Of a stretch of 39,482 nt of DNA, positions 8,076-39,482 are shown in pieces. The DNA is taken from the NCBI GenBank assembly GCA_031266055.1, contig JAISBT010000027.1:1-39482 (forward strand), written 5' to 3'. Positions within the stretch are counted from its first letter, which is position 1. The number at the start of each line of letters is the position of its first letter. Position numbers and translations under genes: made by a program. The stretch comes from Deltaproteobacteria bacterium (lineage in GTDB: Bacteria; Desulfobacterota; Desulfovibrionia; Desulfovibrionales; Desulfovibrionaceae). Under the pieces are notes generated by a model. The model did no database searches. It was not told the DNA's origin and saw only the letters and a program-made list of their open reading frames with translations.

Positions 8076-8349
8076 ATGGTCTACGGACTTCAAAAAGGAT
8101 TATCGGCGTACCAAAGCGACCCCGCGCCATGCTCAAGACTTGGACGGCCTTCTGGAGGCCGTGACCGGGCTTTTGGTGGAAGATAAGCCTTTGCCGGAAA
8201 CATACCGGGATCATTCGCTTATTGGAAATTGGAAAATGTACAGGGAATGCCATCTTAAACCGGATTTACTGCTGGTTTACCAAACGACAGAATCGGAAAT
8301 ACTTCGGTTTGCACGCCTTGGCTCCCACTCAGAATTGTTCAGGGGTTGA
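8062..8349 (+). CDS. RelE/ParE-superfamily YafQ-like mRNA interferase toxin
   Basis: Ends YRECHLKPDLLLVYQTTESEILRFARLGSHSELF, typical of YafQ; 14-nt overlap with antitoxin. Confidence 0.92.
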   Translation: MRTIKWSTDFKKDYRRTKATPRHAQDLDGLLEAVTGLLVEDKPLPETYRDHSLIGNWKMYRECHLKPDLLLVYQTTESEILRFARLGSHSELFRG

Positions 8350-8875
8350 AATTTCCCCTCAAGGAGCAATTTTACGCTGCCGGGTCTTTTGGCCCGAGTC
8401 ATGGCTTGAAGAAGCTGAAACCGGCGTTATAAAGGGGTACATTTTGCCCCCTGAGCAAATATCCTCGAAACCGTGGTGGATTGGGGTTTCAAAAACTAGT
8501 TGACACAGGCCGGAATTTGAATAAATAGTCAAATGGCCGGATATTTTTTCTCAATGAATATGCCGGGATGTTTGCTGATTTTGACAAAACCGGCTTTCTC
8601 CGGGACGAAACCCGCCAAAAAAGGAGGATAAACGCGAAATAAACTTCACTTGGGCTGAACAGCCGCCGGTTCTCCTCAGGCGAAAACCCGGCGCTGATTG
8701 CGTAGCTGGAGTGACCAGTACCATGTACCGCCTCGCCTGTCGCCTCGGCGTGAGGATCGCTTCGCCGCCTTAAGGCGGCGCGCACCCCCTTGCGGGGTTG
8801 CGGCTATTGTCGCTTGACGCGGCACCGGCCGTAACGGATTTTCCATGTGACCTATATTATATAAAGGAGTTTCTC

Positions 8876-10201
8876 ATGAAAATGTTGGTGCGTTTTTTTG
8901 TGGCTATCATGCAAAAATATCTGCCTGATGCCTTTCTGTTCGCCGTCCTGCTGACCTTCGTCGCTTTTCTGGCCGCTCTGGGTTTGACCGACAAAGGCCC
9001 CCTTGAGATCATCAACTCCTGGGGCAACGGGCTGTGGGGCATACTCGGCTTTGCCATGCAAATGATTCTGATCGTGGTCACCGGGCACACTATGGCCATC
9101 AGCCGCCCGGTTAAAAGTCTGCTGGGCACCTTGGCTTCCATACCGAAGACTCCCGCCGGCGCGGGTATGCTCTGCGCCTTTGTGGCGGGCATCTGCAGCT
9201 GGATCAACTGGGGTTTCGGCCTGATCGTGGCCGCCCTGCTGGCCCGCGAACTGGCCCGCCGGATCAAGGGCCTGGATTACGGATATATCGTCGCCGCGGG
9301 TTACGGCGGCTTTATCGTGTGGCATGGCGGACTTTCCGGCTCCATCCCCCTGGCCGTGGCCTCCGCGGGACACCTGGTGGAAAAGCTCACCGGGATCATC
9401 CCCACCACGGAAACCATTTTCCACCCCGCCAACCTGATCATTTCCGGCGCGATGATCCTCTCCCTGCCCATCACGTTCAAACTCATCTGCCCGACGGGCG
9501 ACGACGTGCACGTGGTTGACCAGGCGCTGCTGGTCGACCCGGAGGAAATCAAAGAGCCGAAGGTGAAGACTCTGGCCGAAAAGGTGGAATATTCACGCCT
9601 GATCACCCTGATCCTCGGACTCATGGGCGTGGTTTACCTGGTGCGCTACTTCTACGCCAACGGGGCCATGAACCTTTCCCTGAACATCGTGATCTTCGTC
9701 TTCATGTGGCTGGGCATCATTCTGCACGGCACTCCCATTGCCTATATGCGGGCCGTGAACGAAGCCATCAAGGGGGCCGGGGGCATTGCGGTGCAGTTCC
9801 CCCTGTACGGCGGCATCCAGGGCATTCTGATCGGCACGGGGCTCGCCGGGATCATCGCCCAATGGTTCATTTCCTTCTCCACTGTAACCACCTTTCCCTT
9901 CTTCACCTACATCGCCGGCGGCATCATCAACTTCTTCGTGCCTTCCGGCGGCGGCCAATGGGTGGTGCAGGGGCCCATCAACATCCCCGCGGGCATGGAA
10001 CTGGGCGTCAACCCGGCCAAGGTGGCCATGAGCATAGCCTACGGCGACCAGTGGACCAACATGATCCAGCCTTTCTGGGCTCTGCCGCTTCTGGGCATCG
10101 CCAAGCTGGGGGCCAAGGACATCATGGGTTACTGCGTCATGGTGCTGATTGTGACCGGCGTGATCATGGGAGCCGGACTGCTGCTCATTCCCTGGAACTA
10201 G
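8876..10201 (+). CDS. atoE: Short-chain fatty acid transporter (AtoE/TIGR00366 family)
   Basis: Polytopic; MQKYLPDAFLFAVLLTFVAFLAALGL, WGNGLWGILGFAMQMILIVVTGH, INWGFGLIVAALLAREL, FVPSGGGQWVVQGPI; AAAGGAG RBS before the ATG at 8876. Confidence 0.85.
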   Translation: MKMLVRFFVAIMQKYLPDAFLFAVLLTFVAFLAALGLTDKGPLEIINSWGNGLWGILGFAMQMILIVVTGHTMAISRPVKSLLGTLASIPKTPAGAGMLCAFVAGICSWINWGFGLIVAALLARELARRIKGLDYGYIVAAGYGGFIVWHGGLSGSIPLAVASAGHLVEKLTGIIPTTETIFHPANLIISGAMILSLPITFKLICPTGDDVHVVDQALLVDPEEIKEPKVKTLAEKVEYSRLITLILGLMGVVYLVRYFYANGAMNLSLNIVIFVFMWLGIILHGTPIAYMRAVNEAIKGAGGIAVQFPLYGGIQGILIGTGLAGIIAQWFISFSTVTTFPFFTYIAGGIINFFVPSGGGQWVVQGPINIPAGMELGVNPAKVAMSIAYGDQWTNMIQPFWALPLLGIAKLGAKDIMGYCVMVLIVTGVIMGAGLLLIPWN

Positions 10202-22862: not shown

Positions 22863-24290
22863 CTAAAATCTGATGTTGACCATCAGATTCAGGCGATGGC
22901 GGTCAAATCCCCGGGTCCAGATGTTGGAATCGCGCCGGATATAGCTGTATTGCAGCACCGGCGTAAGGCCCCAGGCCGTAAAGGCGCTGCTGGACAGGGA
23001 AGCGGTAAATCCCCACACGGTATCCTTACGTGTGGTTTCATCCAAGCGGTTATCTCTGGTTACATACCATTGGGGAGCCTTATAGCCGGATCTCGCGAGG
23101 CTGCCTTCCAGAAAAAGCGCGAAGCTATGGGGCAAAATCCGGTACGCCCCCAGCGCGTAGCGCCAGTTATCGCTGGCATAGGCGCGCGCCCGTGTTTCGT
23201 CCCGCAGGAATTGCGCCCCGGCCTGTACAAAGGTTCGCTCATTCAGGATGTAGCGGGGCTGGAAACGAAATCCCCAGGATTGCCCGTGCAAAAAGCTGTG
23301 CACATAGGGGTCGTCATAATCCGTCGTCCCCCAGGAAGCGCCGCCGTCCAGAATCAACGGGCCGAAATTCTGCCGCGCGTCCAGGCGCATCCCGTATTCC
23401 CGGCTGTATTCCTTCCCTCCGTACCAGCGTTTGCGGAAGGTGGGCTGCAGGCTCGCTTCGCCGCTTTCCCACAAGCGGCGCGGCCCCAGCGCCATATACA
23501 GCGTATGGTCGTCATAATCGCGCTGCTCATACATCAGGCCGTTTAAACCCACTGTGGCCCGCAACCCCCAGTCCCGGCTGATGCGCCGGAAATAATCCAG
23601 CGTGGCCCCGCCGGACAGCCCGAAGCCGCTCTTCTTCGCCTCCAGCGGGCGGCAAAGAGTTCCGAAGGTAGTGTCAATGCATTCCTCGCTGCCGCCGGAA
23701 GCCTGGCTGATATTGGAATCGGAAACCGGGGTCAGGAAAAAATCCAGGGTCCAGTCTTTCTGCCGCCGGATCAGATCCAGAAAGACCTCCACCTTTTCCA
23801 GCACCGGCGGCGGGAGGTCGCCGCCCTTGACCAGCTCGAACTGAAAGGCCGCATCTTCGTAGTTTTTATCCAGAAAGTAGGCTCTGGCCAAATCCAGGCG
23901 CACCCGGGGCAGATCCGGGTGGGTGTTGAGGATGATTTGCAGACTGGAGGCCGCCGCACGGTATTTACCTTCCCGCAGCAGGATTTGGGCCAACTGGAAC
24001 CCGGCTTCGACCCGAAAATCCTCGTTACGGGTCTTTTCCAGGACGGCGGCGTATATCTCGCGGGCCTCTTCCAGATGTCCGGCCTGCATGAGCCGCCCGG
24101 CCAGAGCCAAGGCCTCCCTTTCGGAAAGAACGCGGCTGCCCTCCTGTCCGGACGCGGCCGGAGCGGAGGGTTGGCCCGCATCTCCGGCCGCGCGGTTTAC
24201 GCCGCCTGTCCCCTCCTCCGCCCCGGCCAGGGTTGAAAGCCCCACAGCGAGGAGGCAGAGAAACAATCCGGCGGGAAAGCAGTGGGGCAT
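22863..24290 (-). CDS. Surface lipoprotein assembly modifier (Slam/DUF560): N-terminal TPR region, C-terminal outer-membrane beta-barrel
   Basis: Signal peptide; TPR-like YRAAASSLQIILNTHPDLPRVRLDLARAYFLDKNYEDAAFQFE; DFFLTPVSDSNISQAS; barrel-like end with terminal Phe (HRLNLMVNIRF). Confidence 0.85.
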   Translation of the reverse strand: MPHCFPAGLFLCLLAVGLSTLAGAEEGTGGVNRAAGDAGQPSAPAASGQEGSRVLSEREALALAGRLMQAGHLEEAREIYAAVLEKTRNEDFRVEAGFQLAQILLREGKYRAAASSLQIILNTHPDLPRVRLDLARAYFLDKNYEDAAFQFELVKGGDLPPPVLEKVEVFLDLIRRQKDWTLDFFLTPVSDSNISQASGGSEECIDTTFGTLCRPLEAKKSGFGLSGGATLDYFRRISRDWGLRATVGLNGLMYEQRDYDDHTLYMALGPRRLWESGEASLQPTFRKRWYGGKEYSREYGMRLDARQNFGPLILDGGASWGTTDYDDPYVHSFLHGQSWGFRFQPRYILNERTFVQAGAQFLRDETRARAYASDNWRYALGAYRILPHSFALFLEGSLARSGYKAPQWYVTRDNRLDETTRKDTVWGFTASLSSSAFTAWGLTPVLQYSYIRRDSNIWTRGFDRHRLNLMVNIRF

Positions 24291-24294
24291 GAAG

Positions 24295-25464
24295 TTACCG
24301 CTTCACCCCGAAAGCGCCGGAGATGGTGATTTCACCTTCTTCACCTGGAAGGTCGCTATAGGCTTGAAACTTGCCGACAGCCTCGCCGGCAAAGCCATCG
24401 CTACTGCCGCCTTTGTAAAATCCGCCGGCAACCTGGCCTTCCGTGAAGACTGCCGCGTCCCAGTTCCTACTGGCATCGGTAATGTTGGAAAGGCCCACCG
24501 AGAGAGAATCGTTCGACCAGTCGCCCAGCGTGGAACCGCTGACAGCCACACCGGACCAGGTGACGTCAAAGTAGTCCGGAAGACCCACAACCAGCGTTCC
24601 GGTGGTGCCGTTGACAGTCAGGCTGGCTGTCGCATCGTTGAAGAACGTATACGTGCCGAAGTCCGGGCCTTGAGCATAGTGTGAAAGCAGGGCTACCGCG
24701 TTGCCGGTGAAGGCGGCGGAGGACGGAGCGTCCAGCTTCTGCGCGTCCACGCCGCCGAAGAGAGGTTCCATGGCCAGTATATGCCCCTCGGACGTAAGCG
24801 AATGAACGCCCTCGCTGGAGACATATTCGCCCTGCCAGACTTGCTCGGCAATCCACGCGCCGAAGGTGGAATGCTCAAGGGCAACCAGATCCTTGTTCAT
24901 AATAAGCTGTGTTTTGCCGTTCCCGACTTCCCCTGTTAAATATTCTGTATGCTCAGGATCGTCCGGATCCGTGAAAATCAGTTCATGGTTATACTCGCGG
25001 GCCTCCAAGAGCGCTGGATCCCTGACGACAGCATTTATTTTGCCAATCATGTCGTCAGTAGTATCCGTCTCGCCTACTATAAGATTTCCTTGTTCAACTT
25101 CATAGAAATAGACATCCTTATCGGCGCCGGTCGCAAATTTGGCTATTTCGTTTCCTTGGTCGTTTTTAATGACGAACGAGCCGCTATCATCCAACTTGAA
25201 CCCGTCGTCATCGCCAAACGTTATTCCTTGCGCCGCTGATGCCTGCGTACCTGCTCCGGTATTCGAGTTGTCCGCCGCCACCGCCTCGCCTTTCATAGCC
25301 TCCGTAAAGCCCAAATCGGCTTTCGTCATTGCGGCGGGCAGAGAAGCGGATCCCCCTCCGCCCCCTCCGCCGCCTCCGCCGCAGGCCGCCAGAGCCAATG
25401 CGCTGCCGAGCATCAGGCAGGCCATGAAAAACCGCTTCGCCATATCCGTTCCGAAATGTTTCAT
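24295..25464 (-). CDS. Gly-rich surface lipoprotein, candidate Slam substrate (TbpB/fHbp-like C-terminal barrel)
   Basis: Lipobox LALAAC followed by GGGGGGGGGG; C-terminal AGGFYKGGSSDGFAGEAVGKFQ...ITISGAFGVKR; 4 nt upstream of slam; RBS AAGGAG before ATG 25464. Confidence 0.85.
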   Translation of the reverse strand: MKHFGTDMAKRFFMACLMLGSALALAACGGGGGGGGGGSASLPAAMTKADLGFTEAMKGEAVAADNSNTGAGTQASAAQGITFGDDDGFKLDDSGSFVIKNDQGNEIAKFATGADKDVYFYEVEQGNLIVGETDTTDDMIGKINAVVRDPALLEAREYNHELIFTDPDDPEHTEYLTGEVGNGKTQLIMNKDLVALEHSTFGAWIAEQVWQGEYVSSEGVHSLTSEGHILAMEPLFGGVDAQKLDAPSSAAFTGNAVALLSHYAQGPDFGTYTFFNDATASLTVNGTTGTLVVGLPDYFDVTWSGVAVSGSTLGDWSNDSLSVGLSNITDASRNWDAAVFTEGQVAGGFYKGGSSDGFAGEAVGKFQAYSDLPGEEGEITISGAFGVKR

Positions 25465-25644
25465 CTCGTCCTCTCCTTCTGGTTGAGTTGCCTTGCGCGG
25501 CCCGGCGTTCGGGCCGCCTTGAAACGGTGAAAAATGCGTTACAAAAACCGATACATCCTTTTTTATAATAAAACAAGGCGTATAAATCCTGTAAAAAATA
25601 AAAAAATAACCTATGCTTACCTTTTCAACCGGAAAGGAAGTCCA

Positions 25645-25968
25645 ATGGGAGACATCAGCAAAAGCCTGGGGCAGCGCATCCGTTCCCTGCGCGCCAGCCG
25701 GGAACTTTCCCAGGACGCTCTGGCGGAAAAGGCCGGAATGAGCGTGAAGCACCTGGGAAAAATCGAACGCGGAAGCGTCAACGCCTCCATCCAATGCCTG
25801 ACCGACCTCGCCAAAGCGCTCGACCTGCCCCTGCGGGACATTCTGGAGACGGAACACGAGCAAGGAAAGGAGGAACTTCTGGCCGAGCTGGACGCCTGTC
25901 TTCCCCGTCTGTCCCTCAAGGACGTGCGCATCGTCTACCGGCTGGTCACCATCCTCGCCGGGCGCTGA
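25645..25968 (+). CDS. XRE-family HTH regulator, divergent from the lipoprotein/slam operon
   Basis: LGQRIRSLRASRELSQDALAEKAGMSVKHLGKIERGSVNASIQCLTDLAKALDLPLRDIL. Confidence 0.93.
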   Translation: MGDISKSLGQRIRSLRASRELSQDALAEKAGMSVKHLGKIERGSVNASIQCLTDLAKALDLPLRDILETEHEQGKEELLAELDACLPRLSLKDVRIVYRLVTILAGR

Positions 25969-27603: not shown

Positions 27604-27936
27604 TCATGCGCCGCGTTCCAGTAATTTACTGTTCACAAGCCTGTTCAGGCTGACCCCGCTTTCCAGCGCTTGGACAGCAAGTTGCCGGTGTATCTCCGGC
27701 GTGGTTCGCACCATGAATTTGCCGGAATATTTTTGCAGGGACAGAGGTTCGGGCGCGGATTCCCCGTTTGCCCGCATATCGGCAACGGTCTGTTCCACGA
27801 GGGATACCATGCCGGCCAAGGCGGCGCTCTGTTCCGCCTCCAACCATGACAGGCTCGGGAACTCGGCGCACAGTCCGACGAATTCCTGATCTTCTTCCGA
27901 CCAGATAACGCGGTATGTATAGTGCTTGGCGTTCAT
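27604..27936 (-). CDS. hicB: HicB-family antitoxin
   Basis: YTYRVIWSEEDQEFVGLCAEFPSLSWLEAEQSAALAGMVSLVE...GKFMVRTTPEIHRQLAVQALESGVSLNRLVNSKL. Confidence 0.9.
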   Translation of the reverse strand: MNAKHYTYRVIWSEEDQEFVGLCAEFPSLSWLEAEQSAALAGMVSLVEQTVADMRANGESAPEPLSLQKYSGKFMVRTTPEIHRQLAVQALESGVSLNRLVNSKLLERGA

Positions 27937-28187
27937 TCAGCGCTCTCCTTCAACTTTTCAATGGCGGCGAGAACTTGCCGAACCTGATAGGCTTTCGCCA
28001 TGCCGTTGTCGCCGCGCTGGATATTTACGCGAGGGTCGCCAGTCCACGGCGTCTTGTATACGGCATGGCTTGTCCCCTGTTGACGGGCTTGACCGAAATA
28101 GCGCTCACAGATCTTTGCCAAGTCCGTAAAGCGCACATTGTGCGGAGCCGCCCGCATCGCCGCCAGTATTTTTTCACTCGCGCTCAT
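27933..28187 (-). CDS. hicA: HicA-like toxin
   Basis: MSASEKILAAMRAAPHNVRFTDLAKICERYFGQARQQGTSHAVYKTPWTGDPRVNIQRGDNGMAKAYQVRQVLAAIEKL; GAGAGG RBS; 4-nt overlap with hicB. Confidence 0.85.
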   Translation of the reverse strand: MSASEKILAAMRAAPHNVRFTDLAKICERYFGQARQQGTSHAVYKTPWTGDPRVNIQRGDNGMAKAYQVRQVLAAIEKLKESAE

Positions 28188-28611
28188 GCAACCTCTCATT
28201 GGTATCAATAGCGATACTATCAGCCTTAGTCAAGGGCTTTTCTCCACCACCGCTGCCCTCCGCATCCCGGTTCTTTGCGTGCCGTTGCGCTCTACGGGGT
28301 TGGAACCCAAAATGCAGCGTCTGCTATTTCCAATACTGTCGGCATCGGTTTCCGGCCCAAAAATTACCGGATGAAATCAAAAAGGCTTGCAAAAAGCTCA
28401 CGGGGCAAAGCTTCGAAAAAAATACAGAAAAATTCTTGCCTTTTGTTTTTCAATCGGATAATTGAGCAGAGGTGTGGTGTGTCGCGCGATTTTCAAGGGT
28501 TTAAACCATCTGTTTCAAGCGGGCGGCATGAAAGTGCAAGCAAAAAGAATTTTACGTTCCTGGAAAAATAAAGCTGGCCGGGCTGAATACTTCGGTTCTG
28601 GCTTGGTTTTT

Positions 28612-28653
<42 letters not shown>

Positions 28654-28978: not shown

Positions 28979-30121
28979 ATGATGGCGCGGGTGCTTATTG
29001 TAGGCGCGGGTTTTTTCGGCTCTGTTTTGGCCGAACGAATAGCGGAAGATGCGGGCCTGCCGGTAACGGTGATTGACCGCAGAGAGCATGTCGGCGGCAA
29101 TTGTTGGTCGGAAGTGGACCGGTCGACCGGAGTGGAATTTCACAAGTATGGGTCGCATATATTCCATACTTCCAGCGAGGAAGTGTGGAAATACGTTTCC
29201 CGGTTCACCGCTTTTAACGAGTACCGCCATGTGGTGTGGACGACATTTCAGAATCGCGTGTACTCCATGCCAATCAACCTTGGCACCATCAATGCTTACT
29301 ACGGAAAGAACCTGTCGCCCTCTGAAGCGCACGCCTTCATTCAGGAAGAACTGGGCAGGGAAAATATTTCACAACCGCACAACCTGGAAGAAAAAGCGGT
29401 TTCCCTTATCGGACGGCCGCTATATGAGGCCTTCATCCGGGAATACACCATAAAGCAGTGGAGCAAAGAGCCTGTGGAGCTCCCGGCTGATATCATCACC
29501 CGCCTGCCGGTGCGCTTCAGTTATAACAACAGGTATTTTTTCGATACTTATGAAGGGATCCCCCTTGAAGGTTACGGTAAACTTTTTGAGCGTCTCCTGG
29601 CACACGATAAAATTACCGTGCGTCTTGGAACGGACTACGCCGATATGGCACAAAGCGCGCCGCCCCGGGATACGTTAATCATCTGGACAGGGGCTATTGA
29701 CGCGTTTTTTGACTATGCGCTCGGTCAACTGGAATGGCGCACAATGGATTTTGAGGAGCAACGTTTTGATTTGCCGGACTTCCAGGGCGCCACTGTCATG
29801 AACTATGCCGATGCCGCGGTGCCGTACACGCGCATACATGAATTCAAGCATTACCACCCGGAGCGTGAAGACACCGGCAAGACCCTTATCTTCAAGGAAT
29901 ATTCGCGCTTCGCCCAACGTGGCGACGAGCCGTACTACCCGGTGGATACCCGGGCCAACCGGGAACTTTTTGCGCGTTACCAGGATCTTGCGCGCACCCG
30001 GGCCGCTAATGTCATTTTCGGCGGCAGGCTCGGAAATTATAAGTATTATGATATGGACGACGCTATTATGGCCGCTCTTGCTTGTTATCGTGATGTTGTT
30101 GTTCCGCGTTTGCGGGCATGA
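28979..30121 (+). CDS. glf: UDP-galactopyranose mutase
   Basis: VLIVGAGFFGSVLAERIA, HVGGNCWSE, KYGSHIFHTSSEEVW, FNEYRHVVWT, YTIKQWSKEP, RYNNRYF-like SYNNRYFFDTYEGIPLEGY, GRLGNYKYYDMDDAI. Confidence 0.97.
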   Translation: MMARVLIVGAGFFGSVLAERIAEDAGLPVTVIDRREHVGGNCWSEVDRSTGVEFHKYGSHIFHTSSEEVWKYVSRFTAFNEYRHVVWTTFQNRVYSMPINLGTINAYYGKNLSPSEAHAFIQEELGRENISQPHNLEEKAVSLIGRPLYEAFIREYTIKQWSKEPVELPADIITRLPVRFSYNNRYFFDTYEGIPLEGYGKLFERLLAHDKITVRLGTDYADMAQSAPPRDTLIIWTGAIDAFFDYALGQLEWRTMDFEEQRFDLPDFQGATVMNYADAAVPYTRIHEFKHYHPEREDTGKTLIFKEYSRFAQRGDEPYYPVDTRANRELFARYQDLARTRAANVIFGGRLGNYKYYDMDDAIMAALACYRDVVVPRLRA

Positions 30122-30888
30122 ATATGCCGGACTGCGCCATTGTTGTTGCGACGCACAAGCCATACTGGATGCCGTCCGCCCCGATGTATCTGCCTCTGCA
30201 TGTGGGAGCCGCGGGCAAAGCGGATATCGGTTTTACCCGCGATGATGCCGCGCCCTCCATATCGGAAAAAAACCCGTGGTATTGCGAGGTGAGCGGCATG
30301 TACTGGGCCTGGAAGCATCTGGAGGCCGCGTATGTGGGGCTGGCGCAGTACAGGCGGCATTTCTCGCTGCAGCATTTTGTCTTCGGGACGGCAGCCAGGA
30401 AAAAAGCGGTTATCGGCAGCGAAGAGTTGGCTGGACTTTTGAAACAGGATGCGGTGCTGCTGCCCTCCCGCCGCCATTATTTCATAGAAAGCCGCAAACA
30501 GCAGTTTGCAAATGCTCATGGCGCGGAAAGTCTGGCTGCGCTGGAACATGCCTTGCGCACGGAGAATCCGGGATATCTGCCTGCCTACGCAAAGAGCATG
30601 GAGCGCACCTGGGGGCATATCTATAATATGTTTATTATGCGCAGGGATATTTTTCATGCTTACTGCACCTGGCTTTTCCCTGTCCTGGAACTGATGGAGG
30701 CCAAGCTGCTGCAACGCTTGGGCGTTTTACCGCCGCGCATTATAGGTTTTGCCGCAGAGCGTCTGCTGGACGTATGGCTTTTGCACAATCGCGTAGCGTA
30801 TGCCGAAATTGGTTATGTGACGCTGGAACCGGTGAACTGGCCGAAAAAAATTTGCGGGTTTTTAATGCGCAAGTTCAGAACATTTTAA
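30118..30888 (+). CDS. DUF4422-domain (capsular polysaccharide glycosyltransferase-like) protein
   Basis: IVVATHKPYWMP, MYLPLHVGAA, EVSGMYWAWKHLEAAYVGLAQYRRHFS, GHIYNMFIMRRDIFHAYCTWLFPVL. Confidence 0.9.
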   Translation: MNMPDCAIVVATHKPYWMPSAPMYLPLHVGAAGKADIGFTRDDAAPSISEKNPWYCEVSGMYWAWKHLEAAYVGLAQYRRHFSLQHFVFGTAARKKAVIGSEELAGLLKQDAVLLPSRRHYFIESRKQQFANAHGAESLAALEHALRTENPGYLPAYAKSMERTWGHIYNMFIMRRDIFHAYCTWLFPVLELMEAKLLQRLGVLPPRIIGFAAERLLDVWLLHNRVAYAEIGYVTLEPVNWPKKICGFLMRKFRTF

Positions 30889-30943
30889 CATTGAACATGT
30901 TGCAATGTTCCAAATTGTATTTTTCTCAGATCAGGAAGGCATC

Positions 30944-31402
30944 ATGATTTTCGACAAACTGGATAACCTCGAAAAATACGCTGAAATATTCGCGCAAGCC
31001 GCTGCGGTTATCCGGCGCTGTTCAGCCGCGACGCCTTGCGGCCGTATTGACATCGACGGCGACGGCCTTTTTGCCAAAGTTGAAGAGTATCAGACCAAAC
31101 TGCCGGAAGAAGGCCTTTTTGAATCGCACTTACAGTATATTGACGTACAGTCATGTTTGTCCGGCGCGGAGGGCATGCATTTTCTGGATATTTCCGAATG
31201 TAATGCCGTCAAATCCGATTGCAACAACGACTATATAGTCCATACCCCCAAGACTGGTTGCCATAACTACATTGTCGTCCACCCCGGGGAGGCTGTTGTT
31301 TTTTTTCCGCAGGATGCCCACCGGCCTCAAATGCGCACCTATCGAGGCCCGGAAACCATTAAAAAAATAGTAGTGAAAATAAAATGCCCCACCCCAAATT
31401 GA
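30944..31402 (+). CDS. YhcH/YjgK/YiaL (DUF386) family protein
   Basis: MIFDKLDNLEKYA, KVEEYQTKLPEEGLFESHLQYIDVQ, VHPGEAVVFFPQDAHRPQM. Confidence 0.9.
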   Translation: MIFDKLDNLEKYAEIFAQAAAVIRRCSAATPCGRIDIDGDGLFAKVEEYQTKLPEEGLFESHLQYIDVQSCLSGAEGMHFLDISECNAVKSDCNNDYIVHTPKTGCHNYIVVHPGEAVVFFPQDAHRPQMRTYRGPETIKKIVVKIKCPTPN

Positions 31403-32712
31403 TTGCCATGATCCCGGCCCGCATGGGCTCCAAAAGAATACCGCAAAAAAACATCCGTTATATCGACGGTAAGCCCCTCATTGCGCACGCCATTGAACTG
31501 GCCGTCAATTCCATGTGTTTTGAATCGGTCTGGGTAAACAGCGAGGATACAGTTTTGGGAGAAATCGCCGTGGCGCTGGGAGCCGAATTTCACAAGCGCC
31601 CGCCGGAACTGGCTACTGACGCGGCCACCAATAGAGAATTCACGGAAGAGTTCCTCCAAAAACACGAATGCGATTATGTGGTAATGGTCAACACCACCTC
31701 GCCGACGCTGCGTTTGGGCTCTTTGCGGAATTTTTGCGAACTGGTCCGGCAGGGGCAGTATGACACAATCTTGACTACCGTCGGGGAACAGGCGGAAACT
31801 TTTTACGAATACAAGCCGCTGAATTTTTCTTTGAAAGAAAAAGTAAACTCGCAGCTTTTGACTCCTGTTGAAAAAGTCGTCTGGGCCATGACTGCCTGGC
31901 GGCGCGAAACCTTCCTGGAAATGCAGGCCAAGGGGCAAAACCCGATTTTCGGCGGCAAGCTTACGACCTTCAATGTGCCGAAAGACGAATCCTGCGACCT
32001 GGACACGGAAGAAGACTGGAAAATAGCTGACGGAATCCTGCGTTCCCGCTCCTTGCACCTGGTGCCGCAGTATTACAGCCACGCCACCAAGGCCAACCCC
32101 AACGATTTGGGCAGTACGCCCGGCAGCTTCAGCGATTATGTCGATTACGTCAAGAACGGCCTGGATAAAATGCTGGTGCTGGACAGCGCGGGCAAACAGG
32201 TGGATCGCGATGCCGGCATCCGGGAATGGGCCTGCCTGACGCTTGATGTCTATAGAAAGAACGGCAAGGTATTTTTCGCCGGCAATGGCGCAAGCGCCAC
32301 CATGGCCGAGCATATGAGCGCCGACTTGTACAAAAACGGCAACATTCAGACCGTCAGTTGCGCGGAAACGGCCTACCTTACCGCCATCGGCAACGACCTT
32401 GATTTCGCGGAGATTTTTGCTTTTAAAATCAAAAAATCATACACGGAAGACGATCTGCTCATTACGATTTCAAGCTCCGGAAACTCGGAGAACATTGTCC
32501 GGGCCATTGAGGAAGCCAAGGCTAAAAACGGGCGGGTTGTCACCCTGTCCGGGTTCAAGTACTCCAACAAATCACTGCAGCACGGCGATCTGAATTTTTT
32601 CGTCCCCAGCCTGACCTACGGAGCGGTCGAAGTGGCCCACTCCGGAATTTTGCACTGCTGGCTGGATCAATACATGCTCATGTTCAATGCGTATAACGCC
32701 ACAATCAAATGA
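31384..32712 (+). CDS. Fusion: CMP-sugar-synthetase-type cytidylyltransferase domain + SIS (phosphosugar isomerase, GmhA-like) domain
   Basis: N: IAMIPARMGSKRIPQKNIRYIDGKPLIAHAIE...MVNTTSPTLR; C: GKVFFAGNGASATMAEHMSADLYKNG...LLITISSSGNSENIVRAIEEAK. Confidence 0.9.
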   Translation: MPHPKLIAMIPARMGSKRIPQKNIRYIDGKPLIAHAIELAVNSMCFESVWVNSEDTVLGEIAVALGAEFHKRPPELATDAATNREFTEEFLQKHECDYVVMVNTTSPTLRLGSLRNFCELVRQGQYDTILTTVGEQAETFYEYKPLNFSLKEKVNSQLLTPVEKVVWAMTAWRRETFLEMQAKGQNPIFGGKLTTFNVPKDESCDLDTEEDWKIADGILRSRSLHLVPQYYSHATKANPNDLGSTPGSFSDYVDYVKNGLDKMLVLDSAGKQVDRDAGIREWACLTLDVYRKNGKVFFAGNGASATMAEHMSADLYKNGNIQTVSCAETAYLTAIGNDLDFAEIFAFKIKKSYTEDDLLITISSSGNSENIVRAIEEAKAKNGRVVTLSGFKYSNKSLQHGDLNFFVPSLTYGAVEVAHSGILHCWLDQYMLMFNAYNATIK

Positions 32713-33347
32713 TGGAACAGGATTTTTACGAAACCTTTCTCCAGCGGATCCGGTTTGCGTTAGATGCTGTTTCATACACTGAAAAGGCGCCTGACAACGC
32801 CGACGCTGTTGCGGCGTTCACGCCTTCCGAGGGACTGGAACGCTTGTGCGCCGTAACCCATGCCGCGGCCGGAGCCGGAGGGCGCGTCTTTATTCTCGGC
32901 AATGGAGCCAGCAACGCTCTGGCGGCGGCCATTGCCCTGGAATTTGCGCTGAACGCCTCGGTTGACGCGGTTTCCTTCACCTCTTCGGCTTATCTGACCG
33001 CCGTCAATAATGATGACGGCGGAGCCAGCCTGTTTACCCGCGCTCTACAGTGCGCCCTGCGCCCCGCGGATCTGCTGGTGGCGATATCATCATCCGGCAA
33101 ATCCCCGAACATTCTCAGCGCCATCGCCCTGGCGGCCGCGCGGGGCTGCCGTATTGCCACCTTCAGCGCCATGCGGGAGGACAACCCCGCGCGCCTGAGC
33201 GGCGGCATGAATTTTTACGTGCCTATCAGCACTTACAGCGGCGCTGAAACCGCGCACTATGCCTTGCTGCAAATGTGGCACGAGCGATATATGGCCGCCT
33301 ATTTGCCGGAGCGGCTCCCTGAAAAGTATGAAAACCGCCGAAATTGA
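32709..33347 (+). CDS. Second SIS-domain protein, resembling the SIS half of the preceding fusion
   Basis: GRVFILGNGASNALAAAIALEF, YLTAVNNDD, LLVAISSSGKSPNILSAIALA, GMNFYVPISTYSGAETAHYALLQMWHERYM. Confidence 0.85.
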   Translation: MMEQDFYETFLQRIRFALDAVSYTEKAPDNADAVAAFTPSEGLERLCAVTHAAAGAGGRVFILGNGASNALAAAIALEFALNASVDAVSFTSSAYLTAVNNDDGGASLFTRALQCALRPADLLVAISSSGKSPNILSAIALAAARGCRIATFSAMREDNPARLSGGMNFYVPISTYSGAETAHYALLQMWHERYMAAYLPERLPEKYENRRN

Positions 33348-33358
33348 CGAGGTAAAGC

Positions 33359-34255
33359 ATGAGAGTTGTTGTAGGATCGTCTTCGTTCGGGCAGGCTTCC
33401 GCCCTGCCCGGTGAACTGCTGGCCTCCAGGGGGATGGAAGTTGTGCCCAACCCCTTTGGCCGCAAACTGACCGAGGACGAAACCCTTGTCTTTTTGCAAG
33501 GGGCCGACGGGCTGCTGGCCGGACTGGAGCCGCTCAACGCGCGGGTGCTGGCGGCCCATGCCGGGAAGCTGAAAGCCATTGCGCGCATCGGCATCGGCAT
33601 GGACAACGTGGATCAGGAAGCTGCGGCCAGATTGGGCATAGCCGTTTCCAACACGCCGGACGCCCCCACCGGGGCGGTTGCCGAAATGACCCTGGCGGCC
33701 GTCTTCGCACTCTGCCGCGGACTGCATACGCAAAACGCCGCGCTCCACGCCGGAACCTGGAAAAATGTTCTGGGCCGTTCGTTGCGCGACCTGTCTTTTT
33801 TAATCGTCGGTTATGGCAGGATTGGCAAAAGCGTTCAGGCCGCCCTCAAGCCGTTTGCTTCGGAAATTTCCGTGTACGATCCCTTTCAGCCGGATATTTC
33901 GGTGAAATCCTTGCCTGATGCCCTGGCCGTGGCGGATGTGGTTACTTTACACGCCAGCGGCCGGGAGATGATTATAGACCGGGAAAACATCAAGCGCATG
34001 AAGCCCGGAGCCATGCTTTTAAACTGCGGCCGGGGCGGCCAGGTGGACGAAGAGGCCCTGGCCGAGGCCCTGCAAAGCGGACACCTGAGCGGCTGCTGGC
34101 TGGATGTTTTCAGCGACGAGCCATACTCCGGCCGACTTTGCCAATGCGAAACCGCTCTCCTGACGCCCCATGCTTCCACCTGTACGGAAAAATGCAGGGG
34201 CGACATGGAAATGCAAGCGGTGCGGAATATTTTGAGGGATTTGCATGTGGAGTGA
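33359..34255 (+). CDS. D-isomer-specific 2-hydroxyacid dehydrogenase (phosphoglycerate dehydrogenase-like)
   Basis: IARIGIGMDNVD, NTPDAPTGAVAEMTLA, LIVGYGRIGKSVQAAL, MKPGAMLLNCGRGGQVDEEALAEAL, CWLDVFSDEPY, TPHASTCT. Confidence 0.93.
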   Translation: MRVVVGSSSFGQASALPGELLASRGMEVVPNPFGRKLTEDETLVFLQGADGLLAGLEPLNARVLAAHAGKLKAIARIGIGMDNVDQEAAARLGIAVSNTPDAPTGAVAEMTLAAVFALCRGLHTQNAALHAGTWKNVLGRSLRDLSFLIVGYGRIGKSVQAALKPFASEISVYDPFQPDISVKSLPDALAVADVVTLHASGREMIIDRENIKRMKPGAMLLNCGRGGQVDEEALAEALQSGHLSGCWLDVFSDEPYSGRLCQCETALLTPHASTCTEKCRGDMEMQAVRNILRDLHVE

Positions 34256-35054
34256 GCATCTGGATATCGCGGTACGGGCGGCGAAAGCTTCCGGCAGGTT
34301 TCTGCGCGGCTTGACTGATGTGGAGGCCGCCTCCGCAAAAGGAAAAGACATAAAGCTCCACGCGGACAAGGAGTCTGAGCGGATTCTCCTTTCACGCTTG
34401 CAGGGCGCCGGCATACCGATCCTTTCAGAGGAGTCGTCCGAAAAATTTGAGTGCTCCGGGGGCCTGTGCTGGATTATCGATCCCCTTGACGGCTCGTACA
34501 ATCTGTTCAAGGGGTTGCGCGAGCTGTGCTGCGTTTCCGTGGCCCTGTGGGATGACGGCAAACCGGTTCTGGGGGTGGTTTACCGCTTTGCCACGGGCGA
34601 TCTCTATACCGGCGTGCCCGGCAAAGGGGCTTTCTTGAATGGAACGCCCATCCATGCCTCAGCAGTGACGGATATCAGCCAGGCTTCCCTGGCCACAGGC
34701 TTTCCGGTCGGTTCCGACTTTTCCCGGGCCGCCCTGCTGGAGCGCTGTGCGCTTTTTGCGCGCTTCAAGAAAATCCGCATGCTGGGCGCCGCGAGCCTGA
34801 TGTGCGCTTTTGTGGCCCAAGGCTGCGTTGACGTGTACGCGGAAAAGGGCATCTTCCTCTGGGACGTCGCGGCGGCGCTGGCTATCGTGCAGGCGGCGGG
34901 GGGCGTGTATGCGGGTACGTTTGGCGAGCGGCACGCATGCGATGTTCTGGCCTTCGGCAATGCGGAATTAAGTAACAGTTTCGCAACCGCCGGCGATTTT
35001 CACGGCCGCAGGGAGCGTGATGTCCTGCTAGTGCCTGCTCGGGGTTGTTCATGA
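34245..35054 (+). CDS. Inositol-monophosphatase-family phosphatase
   Basis: KDIKLHADKESERIL, ILSEES, CWIIDPLDGSYNLFKGLRELCCVSVAL, LGAASLMCAFVAQGCVDVYAEKGIFLWDVAAALAIVQAAGG. Confidence 0.92.
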   Translation: MWSEHLDIAVRAAKASGRFLRGLTDVEAASAKGKDIKLHADKESERILLSRLQGAGIPILSEESSEKFECSGGLCWIIDPLDGSYNLFKGLRELCCVSVALWDDGKPVLGVVYRFATGDLYTGVPGKGAFLNGTPIHASAVTDISQASLATGFPVGSDFSRAALLERCALFARFKKIRMLGAASLMCAFVAQGCVDVYAEKGIFLWDVAAALAIVQAAGGVYAGTFGERHACDVLAFGNAELSNSFATAGDFHGRRERDVLLVPARGCS

Positions 35055-35857
35055 GAATTCTCATACCCATGGCCGGTGAAGGGAAAAGATTTTCAGATGC
35101 CGGTTATACCGCGCACAAGCCGGTTATACCCACGCTTGACTACCGCACGGGCAAGACCGCTCCGATGGTGGTTTGCGCTACCAATGATCTTTATGGTTCT
35201 CAATCTGAATTGACGTCCCTTATTTATGTGGACAGATCCTTCCACAAGAAGGATGGGGTTGAAGATGTCATCAGGCAATATTATCCGAAAGCCGAGTTCA
35301 TAACGGTGGATGCGCTTACGGATGGGCAAGCCCGCACCTGCTTGCTCGCAAAAGAGCAAATAAACAACAGTGAGCCGCTTTTGATCGCCAGTTGCGATAA
35401 CGGGATGATTTATTCGCAGGAAAAATATGAAGAGCGCAAAAAAAACGCTGACGTTCTGGTTTTTACTTTCAGGAACAGTGATGCGGTTCTGAAAAATCCC
35501 GATGCTTACGGATGGATGCGGGTAGACGAAAACAGCAATGTGGAGGACGTATCCATCAAGAAGAGCATTTCGGATAACCCCATGCTCGATCACGCGGTGA
35601 CCGGAGCATTCTGGTTCCGGCGAGGCGATATTTTTGTGGAAGCCGCGGAAAGAATGATTGCCGTGAACGACAGGATCAAGGGCGAATTTTATGTGGATCA
35701 GGCCGTCAAATATGCGCTGGACAAGGGGTACGCGGTAAAAGTTTTTGAAATAGAACGCTATCTTTGCTGGGGCACGCCGGAAGATTATGAATCTTACCAA
35801 AATACTTATAAATACTGGGTGGACTTTGTAAAGGGCACTCATTACCTGGGCATGTGA
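35051..35857 (+). CDS. Sugar-phosphate nucleotidyltransferase-family protein
   Basis: MRILIPMAGEGKRFSDAGYTAHKPVIP, LIASCDNGMIYSQ, DAYGWMRVDENSNVEDVSIKKSISDNPM, GAFWFRRGDIFVEAAERMI, YLCWGTPEDYESY. Confidence 0.85.
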   Translation: MRILIPMAGEGKRFSDAGYTAHKPVIPTLDYRTGKTAPMVVCATNDLYGSQSELTSLIYVDRSFHKKDGVEDVIRQYYPKAEFITVDALTDGQARTCLLAKEQINNSEPLLIASCDNGMIYSQEKYEERKKNADVLVFTFRNSDAVLKNPDAYGWMRVDENSNVEDVSIKKSISDNPMLDHAVTGAFWFRRGDIFVEAAERMIAVNDRIKGEFYVDQAVKYALDKGYAVKVFEIERYLCWGTPEDYESYQNTYKYWVDFVKGTHYLGM

Positions 35858-37932
35858 TGTACAAGTATTTCGCAAAAAAGAAATATTTACTTTTCATGGC
35901 CTGCGTACTCAGCCTGAAGCTTCTGCTTATGGGGTTTTTCTCGTCCGATTATCAGAACCGGCTGTTCATTCCTTTTGTCGAGGCGTTCATAAACGGCTTC
36001 CCCATAAACCCCTATGAATTGTTTTACGTCAACAACATGGAGCAATCTTTCCCTTACCCGCCCCTGATGCTGTTTGTTATGAGCGTCGGCGGCGTCTTGT
36101 ACAACTTCTTCGCTTCAGCCGGGCTGGACAGCCTTTTCGCGAGCAACCTTATTTTCAAGCTGCCCATACTGGCTTTCGACATAGCCGGCCTTGTCCTTTT
36201 GCTCAAGCTTTACCCGGACAGAAGAAAGAGCATTGCCGTTCTCTACTTTGCCTCTCCTATAATTTTGTACAGTTCCTACATGCACGGGCAGCTGGATATC
36301 ATTCCTACCACTCTGGCCGTTGCGGCCCTGTATTACCTGATCGGCACGCATAAAAGGACGCTTTTATATTTCGTCCTGTTTTGCGCGGCGGCCATTATGA
36401 CCAAGCACCATATCCTCATGCTTGTTCCGTTGGCTTTGATCTATATTGCCAACAAGCATTCGGCGGCGCGAGCCGTCCACGCCCTGCTGGGAATTGTCGG
36501 CGTGTGCCTGCCCGTTGTATTCGCTTTTTACGGCACAGGCCTGCTTCACAACGTCTTCCTGAACCGGGAGATGAATTTGCTCACGCGGATTTATTTTCCC
36601 TATGCCGACGCCATGGTGTTTTTGCCCATCCTGGGCCTGCTGTCAGTCTACCTTAACTATTACCTCTGCAACAGCCCCAACCGGCAATTGTTTTTGAGTT
36701 TTTGCGGCGTACTGTTCGCCGTGGCTCTTATTTTCGTTATCCCCATGCCCGGCTGGTATGTATGGATAGTGCCCTTCATTACCATTTTTTTCGTCCAGAC
36801 CAGCAGCAACCGCTACAAAAACCTGGGGATTTTTCTCGGACTGAACTTTTTCTATCTGCTCTATTTCGTTTTTTGCCACCGGTCGCCCTATGTGGATCTC
36901 TACTTTTTGTCCGTGCCGCTGGACGTTTTGAAAACCGGAGACAGCCAGTACATCAACCTGAGCTTTACCCTGCTTGAGGGGTTTATCATTTATGCCACCA
37001 TCATAATGTACCGGCTCGGCATTTCATCCAACCTTTTCTACAAGAGAAAAGAGCTTCCTTTCGCCATCGGCATCGCCGGGGATAGCGGCAGCGGAAAAAC
37101 CACGCTCCTGCAAAGCATCCGGGAGATCCTCAATGAGAAGAGAATCGTACAGATAGAGGGTGACGGCGACCATAAATGGGCGCGTGGCGAAAAAATGTGG
37201 GAGCAATATACGCACCTGAACCCCAAGGCCAACCACCTCTACCGCCAGGCGTTGGATATAGAAAAGCTGAGAAGCGGCGCGGCAATCAGGCGCGTTGATT
37301 ATGATCATCATACCGGAACATTTACAGAAAAGCTTCGGGTAAGCCCCAAACCGTATATTGTGATCAGCGGCCTGCATTCCTTGTATCTGCCAAGCATGCG
37401 CCAACAGCTTGATTTGAAAATTTACATGGATACCTCGCCGCAATTGCGCACTTTCTGGAAAATGCAGCGGGATATGCACAACAGAAGCTATTCCCCCGAA
37501 AAGATTGTGGAGCAGATCAACAAGCGTCTGCCTGATGCCGCAAGGTACATCGAGCCGCAAAAGCAATATGCGGATCTGGTCGTGAACTACTATGATCCGG
37601 ATATTCCGAAAGAATATGGCGAAAGCTACAGGGTTGCGCTGCACATGCAGCTCACCCTGAGCGCCGGGGTACATGTGGAGCCGCTGGTAACTTTCCTGAA
37701 TAAATACGGCATAAAATCGACTTTTGACTTTACTGACAACCTGGAAAAACAAATCATCAGGATTGCGCCCAGAAAGGACAAGAGCGCCGGAATCCCTTTC
37801 AACCGGCTGGCGCACCGGCTCATCCCGCACCTTGACGACATTACGACCGGAAATATTGATGCGGACGAAGATTTGGACGGCATCCTGAAAATCATCATCC
37901 TGTACATTATGAGCTACAAACTGCGGGTCTGA
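35857..37932 (+). CDS. Fusion: polytopic membrane domain (GT-C/mannosyltransferase-like) + uridine kinase/phosphoribulokinase-like P-loop kinase
   Basis: ~380 aa of TM helices with SFPYPPLMLFVMS and HGQLDIIPTTLAVAALYYL, then FAIGIAGDSGSGKTTLLQSIREIL (Walker A), DYDHHTGTFTEKLRVSPKPYIVISGLHSLYLPSMRQQLDLKIYMDT. Confidence 0.85.
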   Translation: MYKYFAKKKYLLFMACVLSLKLLLMGFFSSDYQNRLFIPFVEAFINGFPINPYELFYVNNMEQSFPYPPLMLFVMSVGGVLYNFFASAGLDSLFASNLIFKLPILAFDIAGLVLLLKLYPDRRKSIAVLYFASPIILYSSYMHGQLDIIPTTLAVAALYYLIGTHKRTLLYFVLFCAAAIMTKHHILMLVPLALIYIANKHSAARAVHALLGIVGVCLPVVFAFYGTGLLHNVFLNREMNLLTRIYFPYADAMVFLPILGLLSVYLNYYLCNSPNRQLFLSFCGVLFAVALIFVIPMPGWYVWIVPFITIFFVQTSSNRYKNLGIFLGLNFFYLLYFVFCHRSPYVDLYFLSVPLDVLKTGDSQYINLSFTLLEGFIIYATIIMYRLGISSNLFYKRKELPFAIGIAGDSGSGKTTLLQSIREILNEKRIVQIEGDGDHKWARGEKMWEQYTHLNPKANHLYRQALDIEKLRSGAAIRRVDYDHHTGTFTEKLRVSPKPYIVISGLHSLYLPSMRQQLDLKIYMDTSPQLRTFWKMQRDMHNRSYSPEKIVEQINKRLPDAARYIEPQKQYADLVVNYYDPDIPKEYGESYRVALHMQLTLSAGVHVEPLVTFLNKYGIKSTFDFTDNLEKQIIRIAPRKDKSAGIPFNRLAHRLIPHLDDITTGNIDADEDLDGILKIIILYIMSYKLRV

Positions 37933-37933
37933 T

Positions 37934-38458
37934 ATGAATGTAATATCCTTTTGCGTTATAACCGTTATCTGCGCCGTCCTGTTCATCCTGGTTCAAAAGC
38001 TCGTTATCGCCTTTGTTCCGGCCAGTGTACTTACCTGCGCGATCATCGCCTGCGTTTGCATCGCCGTGGCCGGATTTATTGTTTTTTCGCACCTCAACAA
38101 AAGTTATTACTCCGGTATGCTGGCCGCCATCGCTTATTTTTCCAGTTTTATGCTGTTCTCTGTATTCACTTCAGTATTTATAGATCGCTCGCTGACTTAT
38201 CACATTATTTTTTACAGTGCATCGCACGGTTCCATTTCGGAAAACAACATGGCCGTGCTGTTCAATTCCTCTCCTTACAAGGAGCAGCGGATAGAAGACA
38301 TGCTCAGCAAGGGATATCTGATTAAAGTAGGTGACGAATATCAGCCGACGGACAGAGCCGGATATTTTGCGAAAGTCCTCATGGCGCTTGGCGAATTCTA
38401 CAATATCAACAGCACCTGGGAGAGCGTGGAAACGCAGATGCAATCACGAAAAGATTGA
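37934..38458 (+). CDS. Hypothetical membrane protein: four predicted TM helices plus a small cytosolic, possibly winged-helix-like, tail
   Basis: ATG 1 nt after the previous stop; hydrophobic N-terminal half; tail ENNMAVLFNSSPYKEQRIEDMLSKGYLIKVGDEYQPTDRAGYFAKVLMAL. Confidence 0.7.
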   Translation: MNVISFCVITVICAVLFILVQKLVIAFVPASVLTCAIIACVCIAVAGFIVFSHLNKSYYSGMLAAIAYFSSFMLFSVFTSVFIDRSLTYHIIFYSASHGSISENNMAVLFNSSPYKEQRIEDMLSKGYLIKVGDEYQPTDRAGYFAKVLMALGEFYNINSTWESVETQMQSRKD

Positions 38459-38470
38459 AAGGATAAACGC

Positions 38471-39175
38471 TTGCTTTGTTCAATAGTCGTACCTTGCTAC
38501 AACGAGGAAAAAAACATCCCGTTGATCTTCGAGCGCTTCAAGGCGGCCATGGGCGGATGCCGCGCCGATCTTGAGCTTCTGCTCGTCAACAACGGTTCGG
38601 ATGACGGTACCGGCGAACGCATCAGCGCGCTTTTGTCCGGGCATCCTTTTGCGCGCATGGTCGTCGTTGCGGTCAATCAGGGTTACGGCTACGGCATTCT
38701 CCAGGGGCTGCGCGCAGCCAAAGGGGGGTATCTGGGGTGGACTCATGCCGATTTGCAGACGGATCCCGGTGACGTGATCAAGGCCGTCAACATCGTAAGC
38801 GAGAAGCGCGGCCGGGTTTTCGTGAAGGGAGACCGAAAGGGCCGCCCGCTTTTTGATCGGTTTTTCACCTCCGGCATGAGCTGGTTTGAAACCCTTTACC
38901 TCGGGGAAAGGCTCCACGACATTAACGCCCAGCCGAATATTTTTCCGGCGGAATTTTTCCGGAGCTGGCGGAACCCGCCCCATGATTTCGCCCTGGATCT
39001 CTATGCCCTTTACATGGCCAAAAAACATGGGCTGGAGGTGGTTCGCTTTGACGTAAAATTTCCGCCCCGGCTGCATGGCGCATCCAGTTGGAACACCGGT
39101 CTGACCGCGAAATGGAAATTTATCAAAAGAACCCTGGATTTTTCCTTTGTTCTGAAAAAACAAGGCATAAGCTGA
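38471..39175 (+). CDS. GT2-family glycosyltransferase (TTG start)
   Basis: CSIVVPCYNEEKNIPLIFERFKAAM, ELLLVNNGSDDGTGERI, NQGYGYGILQGLRAAKGGYLGWTHADLQTDP; AAAGGA upstream. Confidence 0.92.
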   Translation: MLCSIVVPCYNEEKNIPLIFERFKAAMGGCRADLELLLVNNGSDDGTGERISALLSGHPFARMVVVAVNQGYGYGILQGLRAAKGGYLGWTHADLQTDPGDVIKAVNIVSEKRGRVFVKGDRKGRPLFDRFFTSGMSWFETLYLGERLHDINAQPNIFPAEFFRSWRNPPHDFALDLYALYMAKKHGLEVVRFDVKFPPRLHGASSWNTGLTAKWKFIKRTLDFSFVLKKQGIS

Positions 39176-39482
39176 TGAAATGGATCGCCCATAGAATAAA
39201 CACCCTGGCCGAACTAAGGAACCTCCCTCCTGAATATGGCGTGGAAATAGACCTGAGAGACGATCTGTCCGGACGCATCTATCTGGAACACGACCCTTTC
39301 AAGTCGGGCCAGGACTTTGAAGAATATCTTTCACAATACCATCACGGCGCCATGATCCTCAACATCAAGAGCGAGCGGATTGAATTAAAAGCCCTTGAGC
39401 TTCTGGAGAAATACAATATTTCCGATTACTTCTTCCTGGACAGCTCCTTCCCCATGATAAAACTCCTGACGGACATGGGCGT
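39175..39482 (+). CDS. Glycerophosphodiester-phosphodiesterase / PI-PLC-like protein, truncated by window edge
   Basis: MKWIAHRINTLAELRNLPPEYGVEIDLRDDLSGRIYLEHDPFKSGQDFEEYLSQYHHGAMILNIKSERIELKALELLEKYNISDYFFLDSSFPMIKLLTDMG; ATGA overlap with the previous stop; not in ORF track because it runs off the end. Confidence 0.75.
   Translation, partial: MKWIAHRINTLAELRNLPPEYGVEIDLRDDLSGRIYLEHDPFKSGQDFEEYLSQYHHGAMILNIKSERIELKALELLEKYNISDYFFLDSSFPMIKLLTDMG

Follow-up and report, generated by a model that had tools for sequence, protein, structure and literature searches.

A recurrent bacterial gene cassette with a possible oxidative route to a CMP-activated sugar acid

A 39,482-nucleotide stretch of DNA from a Deltaproteobacteria bacterium of the family Desulfovibrionaceae (assembly GCA_031266055.1, contig JAISBT010000027.1), which we call the window, ends in a compact operon of genes for an apparently undescribed nucleotide-sugar pathway. 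The operon comprises 12 plus-strand open reading frames (ORFs) that touch or overlap from position 28979 to the contig end, with intergenic distances of -19 to +16 bp. Because the window is the entire contig (C68; 39482 bp), the last ORF (39175-39480) is incomplete and the operon runs on beyond position 39482. A first-pass annotation of this DNA had described about 11 tightly packed genes; the packing is as described, but the number is 12, including a small membrane protein with hydrophobic segments and no Pfam match (37934-38458). Pfam and NCBIfam searches locate the genes it named (two SIS proteins, two nucleotidyltransferases, a phosphoribulokinase (PRK)/uridine-kinase-like domain, an inositol-monophosphatase-family phosphatase (IMPase), a dehydrogenase and YhcH) where it had placed them. 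The junctions that it quoted are present in the sequence at 30118 (ATGA), 32709 (ATGATG), 35051 (ATGA), 35857 (GTGATG) and 39175 (TGATG), whereas the one at 34245 is an 11-bp overlap and not an ATGA/TGATG junction. The operon consists of two modules, A and B, rather than a single pathway.

Module A opens with a YhcH/DUF386 protein, a candidate anomerase (30905-31402; PF04074, 1.8e-36) whose true start is probably an internal ATG near 30944. Next comes a single 442-residue frame (31384-32712) in which, as the first-pass annotation had recognized, a nucleotidyltransferase of the CMP (cytidine monophosphate)-sugar-synthetase type (CTP_transf_3, PF02348; residues 1 to about 230) is fused to a GmhA-type SIS domain (SIS_2, PF13580; about 245-442). 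The module is completed by a D-2-hydroxyacid dehydrogenase resembling phosphoglycerate dehydrogenase (PGDH; 33359-34255; PF02826, 2e-39) and by the IMPase (34245-35054; PF00459, 4.8e-47). A second SIS protein, SIS2 (32709-33347; PF13580, 1.6e-9), lies between the fusion and the PGDH-like gene.

With the fusion protein as query, we searched a single genome of each species in GTDB 220, and extended the search to family and plasmid collections. Eleven further loci from four phyla bring together genes for the CMP-transferase, SIS, PGDH-like enzyme and IMPase: Desulfobacterota, with Desulfovibrio sp. OttesenSCG-928-C06 (L023) and two Desulfovibrionaceae (L052, L053); Bacillota, with Lachnospiraceae and related metagenome-assembled genomes (MAGs; L024, L025, L027, and L026 with L111) and Paenibacillus cellulosilyticus (L089); Bdellovibrionota, with a Bdellovibrionaceae MAG (L028/L109); and Alphaproteobacteria, with Sinorhizobium fredii (L090) and Leisingera aquaemixtae (L091). 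Within this count L025 and L027 differ so little that they may be one locus, and in L026/L111 a distance of ~7.6 kb separates the YhcH and CMP-transferase genes from the other cassette genes. The first-pass annotation had made its reading depend on conservation in relatives, which the core has. Such clustering in four phyla indicates that the association is more than chance, and since gene order differs among the loci, we argue that the linkage is functional rather than merely historical. Fusion of the transferase to SIS is limited to the window and L023; the other loci encode the two separately, often by neighboring genes. Every one of the 11 loci also carries a dehydrogenase of the GFO/IDH family on the same stretch, eight carry a methyltransferase-like gene and seven carry YhcH. 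The Bdellovibrionaceae copy has an extra 6-phosphogluconolactonase, with DERVVP and GVGPDGHTASLFP motifs, and the S. fredii copy an extra relative of 2-oxopent-4-enoate hydratase (8ih6, E=2.1e-5). The SIS relatives at L007-L022, true cassettes apart, proved to be SIS genes in other contexts and were set aside.

The cassette is rare. Among 346 genomes sampled from the phylum, none but the window's own gave a match at E<=1e-40, and 397 genomes sampled from the family of L024 yielded only the two cassettes already known. This rarity, together with the spread over four phyla, suggests that module A is exchanged by horizontal transfer. The transferases themselves also appear to have been swapped between cassettes: in L053, a transferase of the subtype found in Leisingera and Sinorhizobium (8306-8989) stands beside a PGDH and a GFO dehydrogenase of the main type (52% and 48% identity). 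Genes for MptE-like (Maf-related) proteins are adjacent or near in several copies, and those of Paenibacillus sit with a NeuB gene. These neighbors are only suggestive of a Maf-type flagellin role for module A, and a paper on the Geobacillus flagellin island makes no mention of phosphoheptose isomerase, inositol phosphatase or PGDH (PMC5109656).

Module B consists of an RmlA/GlmU-like nucleotidyltransferase (35051-35857; TIGR01208, 4.5e-8; 4evw, E=6.8e-5; no Pfam match), which starts at the ATG at 35051 or possibly at a TTG at 35045; a fusion of a GT-C-like membrane domain to the PRK-like kinase (35854-37932; PF00485, 7.1e-36); a GT2 glycosyltransferase (38471-39175; PF00535, 2.2e-19); and the truncated ORF at 39175-39480, which is 56-58% identical to L092:15673-16275. 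Full-length relatives of this last ORF have ~200 residues and, read by eye and with no Pfam match, resemble glycerophosphodiester phosphodiesterases. The membrane fusion of the kinase, already described in the first pass, involves about nine hydrophobic segments, whose topology alone gives the GT-C assignment. The PRK domain has a Walker A motif (GDSGSGKTT) and scores 197.6 bits with the phosphoribulokinase model NF005655, below its cut-off of 236. Relatives of the module B genes occur together in four other Desulfovibrionaceae (G051, G136, G040, G153), though in some of them part of the set was not detected. There the GT-C-PRK fusion has full-length relatives, the GT2 protein is 53-59% identical, and genes for HAD and class II aldolase proteins are present in most; the nucleotidyltransferase is 38-40% identical to two-domain versions in L092, L094 and L095. 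We found no paper on PRK-glycosyltransferase fusions in the open-access literature. Module B is a separate set of kinase, GT-C protein and nucleotidyltransferase, and our guess for its role is a lipid-linked sugar or polyol-phosphate pathway. These four genomes lack the module A transferase. Conversely, eight carriers of module A lack the GT-C-PRK fusion: three plasmid records and the genomes G123, G159, G179, G650 and G653, of which G123 and G179 have a completeness of only 62-65%. Because the two modules segregate in this way, we reject one pathway for the entire operon.

The CMP-transferase of module A belongs to a distinct group. Its nearest NCBIfam model is PseF (TIGR03584), with which it scores 105.6 bits against a curated cut-off of 205.7. 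In a midpoint-rooted FastTree phylogeny, the 11 cassette transferases form one clade with support of 1.0 against 21 other NeuA/PseF-like sequences. The CTP-binding motif PARxGSKRxPxKN is present in the window protein, and close variants are found in all copies. The 20 nearest outsiders have RSQDLxP...GQFY where all 11 members of the clade have KxNSQxLxP...WxxTxW. We modeled the fusion with AlphaFold (mean pLDDT 83, pTM 0.51, alignment of 12 sequences). In fold searches with this model, CMP-sialate, CMP-Kdn, CMP-Pse and CMP-Kdo (3-deoxy-D-manno-octulosonate) synthetases rank first for the first half and GmhA is found for the second; given the shallow alignment and the pTM value, the relative placement of the two domains is unreliable.

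The remaining enzymes were compared with family models and known active sites. Both SIS proteins fall below the cut-off of the GmhA model TIGR00441 (209.45 bits), with 71.7 for the SIS domain of the fusion (SIS1) and 48.1 for SIS2. At the positions of the metal and catalytic residues His61, Glu65 and His180 of E. coli GmhA, SIS1 has His, Asp and His, the Asp standing at the Glu65 position, and SIS2 has Ala, Glu and His, so that the first metal-site His is absent. SIS2, seen only in the window and in none of the other module A copies, may be a non-catalytic partner subunit or part of another step. The PGDH-like protein scores 184.7 bits against a cut-off of 454 (TIGR01327), and is 298 residues long with no regulatory domain. 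On these scores, the SIS proteins, the PGDH-like enzyme and the PRK domain are best classed as relatives, not members, of the GmhA, PGDH and phosphoribulokinase families. The PGDH-like enzyme keeps the catalytic residues of D-2-hydroxyacid dehydrogenases (R of CGRGG, E of SDEP and H of TPHAS), and its expected substrate is therefore a 2-hydroxy/2-oxo acid pair. YhcH exceeds the cut-off of TIGR00022 (91.7 bits over 45.5) and reaches 87.2 of the 160 bits set for the anomerase model NF040884; the ExH, DxQ and HxP positions are kept in seven copies. The E. coli YhcH interconverts the anomers of N-acetylneuraminate, a 2-ulosonic acid (PMC8141875).

A variant cluster in one of the module B genomes (G051, L114:8247-14151) contains an APS-kinase-like gene, a PGDH gene (42% identical), a short-chain dehydrogenase/reductase (SDR), a CTP_transf_3 transferase, an MptE-like gene and, as judged by reading, a HAD-like ORF. 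Here PGDH and CMP-transferase are kept together while the other enzymes change, which fits a PGDH acting near the CMP step.

The nearest relative of these GFO dehydrogenases in the window's genome lies off the window contig, and so could not have been seen in the first pass. A search of the genome with the Lachnospiraceae GFO protein gave no match; another contig (C110) encodes a protein that shares 51% identity with the divergent L023 GFO, and we infer that this protein serves module A. Its neighborhood (L112:2775-12845) contains an ABC transporter with a Wzt-like ATPase, a radical SAM/SPASM protein, an FkbM methyltransferase, and MptE-like and glycosyltransferase genes. An attempt to join the two contigs at their ends failed, as the ends share no sequence; linkage of the operon to this ABC-exporter region and its GFO gene is thus putative. 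Matches of the GFO proteins include 3-dehydrogenases and inositol 2-dehydrogenase.

These observations raise a question: how might such a gene set yield a CMP-activated sugar? All the CMP-activated sugars we know of (Kdo and the sialic, pseudaminic and legionaminic acids) are made by condensation of an aldose with phosphoenolpyruvate (PEP), and no NeuB or KdsA was recognized in the 11 other cassettes or in the window operon. The kept residues of the PGDH-like enzyme, the lactonase, the hydratase relative and the activity of E. coli YhcH suggest an oxidative route. We tentatively propose, as the most likely reading, that module A is a mobile cassette making a CMP-activated 2-ulosonic acid by oxidation instead of condensation. 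The SIS isomerase would convert a ketose phosphate to an aldose phosphate, sedoheptulose 7-phosphate being the best fit to the GmhA type. The GFO/IDH dehydrogenase would oxidize C1 to give an aldonolactone phosphate, which would open to the aldonate phosphate either spontaneously or, in one copy, through the lactonase. The PGDH-like enzyme would then oxidize C2 to give a 2-ketoaldonate phosphate, from which the IMPase would remove the phosphate to leave a 2-ulosonic acid. YhcH would interconvert the anomers, and the transferase would form the CMP-ulosonate, presumably for use in a surface glycan. In net terms, the C1 CH2OH of the ketose would become COOH, and each conserved enzyme would be employed once, with no PEP condensation. 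Starting from fructose 6-phosphate, the product would be 2-ketogluconic acid; from sedoheptulose 7-phosphate, it would be D-altro-hept-2-ulosonic acid. We consider it unlikely, if worth stating, that the specific route is a horizontally exchanged, PEP-independent path from sedoheptulose 7-phosphate to CMP-D-altro-hept-2-ulosonic acid in both Gram-positive and Gram-negative bacteria; neither this sugar nor such a pathway is known to us from bacterial glycans. In the open-access literature we found no description of a SIS/CMP/PGDH/IMPase cluster or of a hept-2-ulosonic acid in glycans, which agrees with the first-pass view of a possibly undescribed pathway in which a CMP-sugar-synthetase-type enzyme is linked to SIS, dehydrogenase and YhcH.

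Several observations weigh against an oxidative route, and must be set beside the rival explanations. The Arg of RSQDLxP helps to bind the sugar acid in sialate synthetases; its absence from all 11 members of the clade is, at the level of motifs, the main argument against a carboxylate-bearing substrate, although an invariant Lys, two positions ahead of NSQ, might take its role. In the subtype formed by the transferases of L053, L090 and L091, the DxDT metal motif is missing as well. Four of the 11 loci lack YhcH, and most copies have no lactonase gene. The window contig itself encodes no GFO dehydrogenase, the one on C110 is a divergent form with no linkage to the operon seen, and relatives of this enzyme oxidize various positions, so that oxidation at C1 is a guess. 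The replaced transferase motif, the GFO matches to 3-dehydrogenases and inositol 2-dehydrogenase, and the methyltransferase-like gene of many copies, which suggests further tailoring, favor a different reading, which we judge somewhat improbable: module A would make a CMP-sugar with no ulosonic carboxylate, the GFO and PGDH-like enzymes would act elsewhere (for example at C3, as enzymes related to UDP-GlcNAc 3-dehydrogenase do), and the transferase, with its sugar pocket rebuilt, would take a neutral or differently charged sugar. This gives no natural role to the PGDH-like enzyme, the lactonase or the 2-oxo-acid-hydratase relative, the last two being extras that an oxidative route would predict.

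A standard sugar is a less probable product still. Module A could supply or modify a sugar of the CMP-Kdo-like or CMP-nonulosonate kind, for which each genome would encode the PEP-condensing enzyme at another site. The transferase fold is of the CMP-sialate/Kdo synthetase type, a SIS protein stands beside a CMP-Kdo synthetase in E. coli KpsF/KpsU, and NeuB/KdsA matches lie outside the cassette in most genomes, the window's own having two NeuB genes and one KdsA gene on other contigs. However, in the module A carrier G650 the NeuB and KdsA models match one locus only, at 30.5 and 134.8 bits (the KdsA cut-off is 314); it probably encodes a DAHP synthase, although this MAG may be incomplete. Moreover, the SIS is of the GmhA type (SIS_2), the transferase scores well under the PseF cut-off, and PGDH, GFO and IMPase would be left over. 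We regard as very improbable the first-pass proposal of a single NDP-heptose-type pathway, with the PRK domain as its kinase and both nucleotidyltransferases involved. The two modules do share one operon in the window, the SIS is GmhA-like, and HddA/HddC-like genes are found close to two of the module B clusters; yet the kinase and second nucleotidyltransferase belong to the separately conserved module B, with the GT-C-PRK gene missing from eight module A genomes or records and the module A transferase from four module B genomes, and PGDH, GFO and YhcH would again be left over.

It is instructive to compare module A with known systems. Like the CMP-Kdo pathway (KdsD/KpsF, KdsA, KdsC, KdsB/KpsU), it has a SIS isomerase, a phosphatase and a CMP-transferase of related fold around a sugar acid. 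It differs in having PGDH and GFO in place of the PEP-condensing KdsA, an IMPase-type phosphatase, a SIS of GmhA type and a transferase nearer PseF/NeuA with a rebuilt sugar motif. The transferases of the CMP-sialic, -pseudaminic and -legionaminic acid pathways are the closest in sequence and fold, and MptE-like neighbors are a further likeness, but module A lacks a NeuB-type synthase, hexosamine enzymes and the RSQDLxP motif. With the NDP-heptose pathways (GmhA, HddA, GmhB, HddC), the analogy drawn in the first pass, it shares the GmhA-type SIS and a phosphatase; the analogy fails for the rest, since the HddA kinase, GmhB and HddC were seen in none of the 11 other copies, and module A has a CMP-transferase and two dehydrogenases instead. 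The CDP-6-D-glucitol pathway of Campylobacter jejuni HS:5 (PMC10918830) likewise makes a cytidylyl-activated capsule residue from a ketose phosphate with a redox step, but uses a diphosphate-forming transferase of the IspD type (PF01128) and an SDR, and has no SIS, PGDH, IMPase or YhcH. The window YhcH belongs to the same DUF386 subfamily as the E. coli protein, but falls below the anomerase-specific cut-off and lies in a CMP-sugar cassette rather than a catabolic operon.

Upstream of module A, the operon begins with glf, for UDP-galactopyranose mutase (28979-30121; TIGR00031, 338.9 bits, above the cut-off of 303.75), and a DUF4422 gene, from its context a probable glycosyltransferase (30118-30888; PF14393, E=2.9e-65). 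The adjacency of these two genes is the ground for the suggestion of a galactofuranose-containing glycan. A perfect (CA)20 run in the intergenic region ~330 bp upstream of the operon (28613-28652) is a possible slippage site. At 27604-28208, just before the operon, the minus strand carries a HicB-family gene (PF05534) and, upstream of it, a small ORF with no Pfam match that reads like HicA. A SlipAM-family (Slam-like) protein and a neighboring minus-strand ORF, in which a lipoprotein-like signal precedes a poly-glycine tract, are perhaps an exporter and its cargo (22863-25863). Near its left end, the window has a 97-bp segment duplicated perfectly in tandem and an 18-bp repeat present four times (645-838 and 1843-1914).

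If the oxidative route is correct, it would constitute a second chemical route to CMP-sugars, in which oxidative enzymes replace the condensing step, and it predicts a sugar acid as yet unknown on bacterial surfaces. The pathway is small, with five or six enzymes, most of them soluble. Its gene content also provides a signature by which genes of glycan islands now annotated as 'phosphoglycerate dehydrogenase', 'SIS protein' or 'inositol monophosphatase' may be re-annotated.

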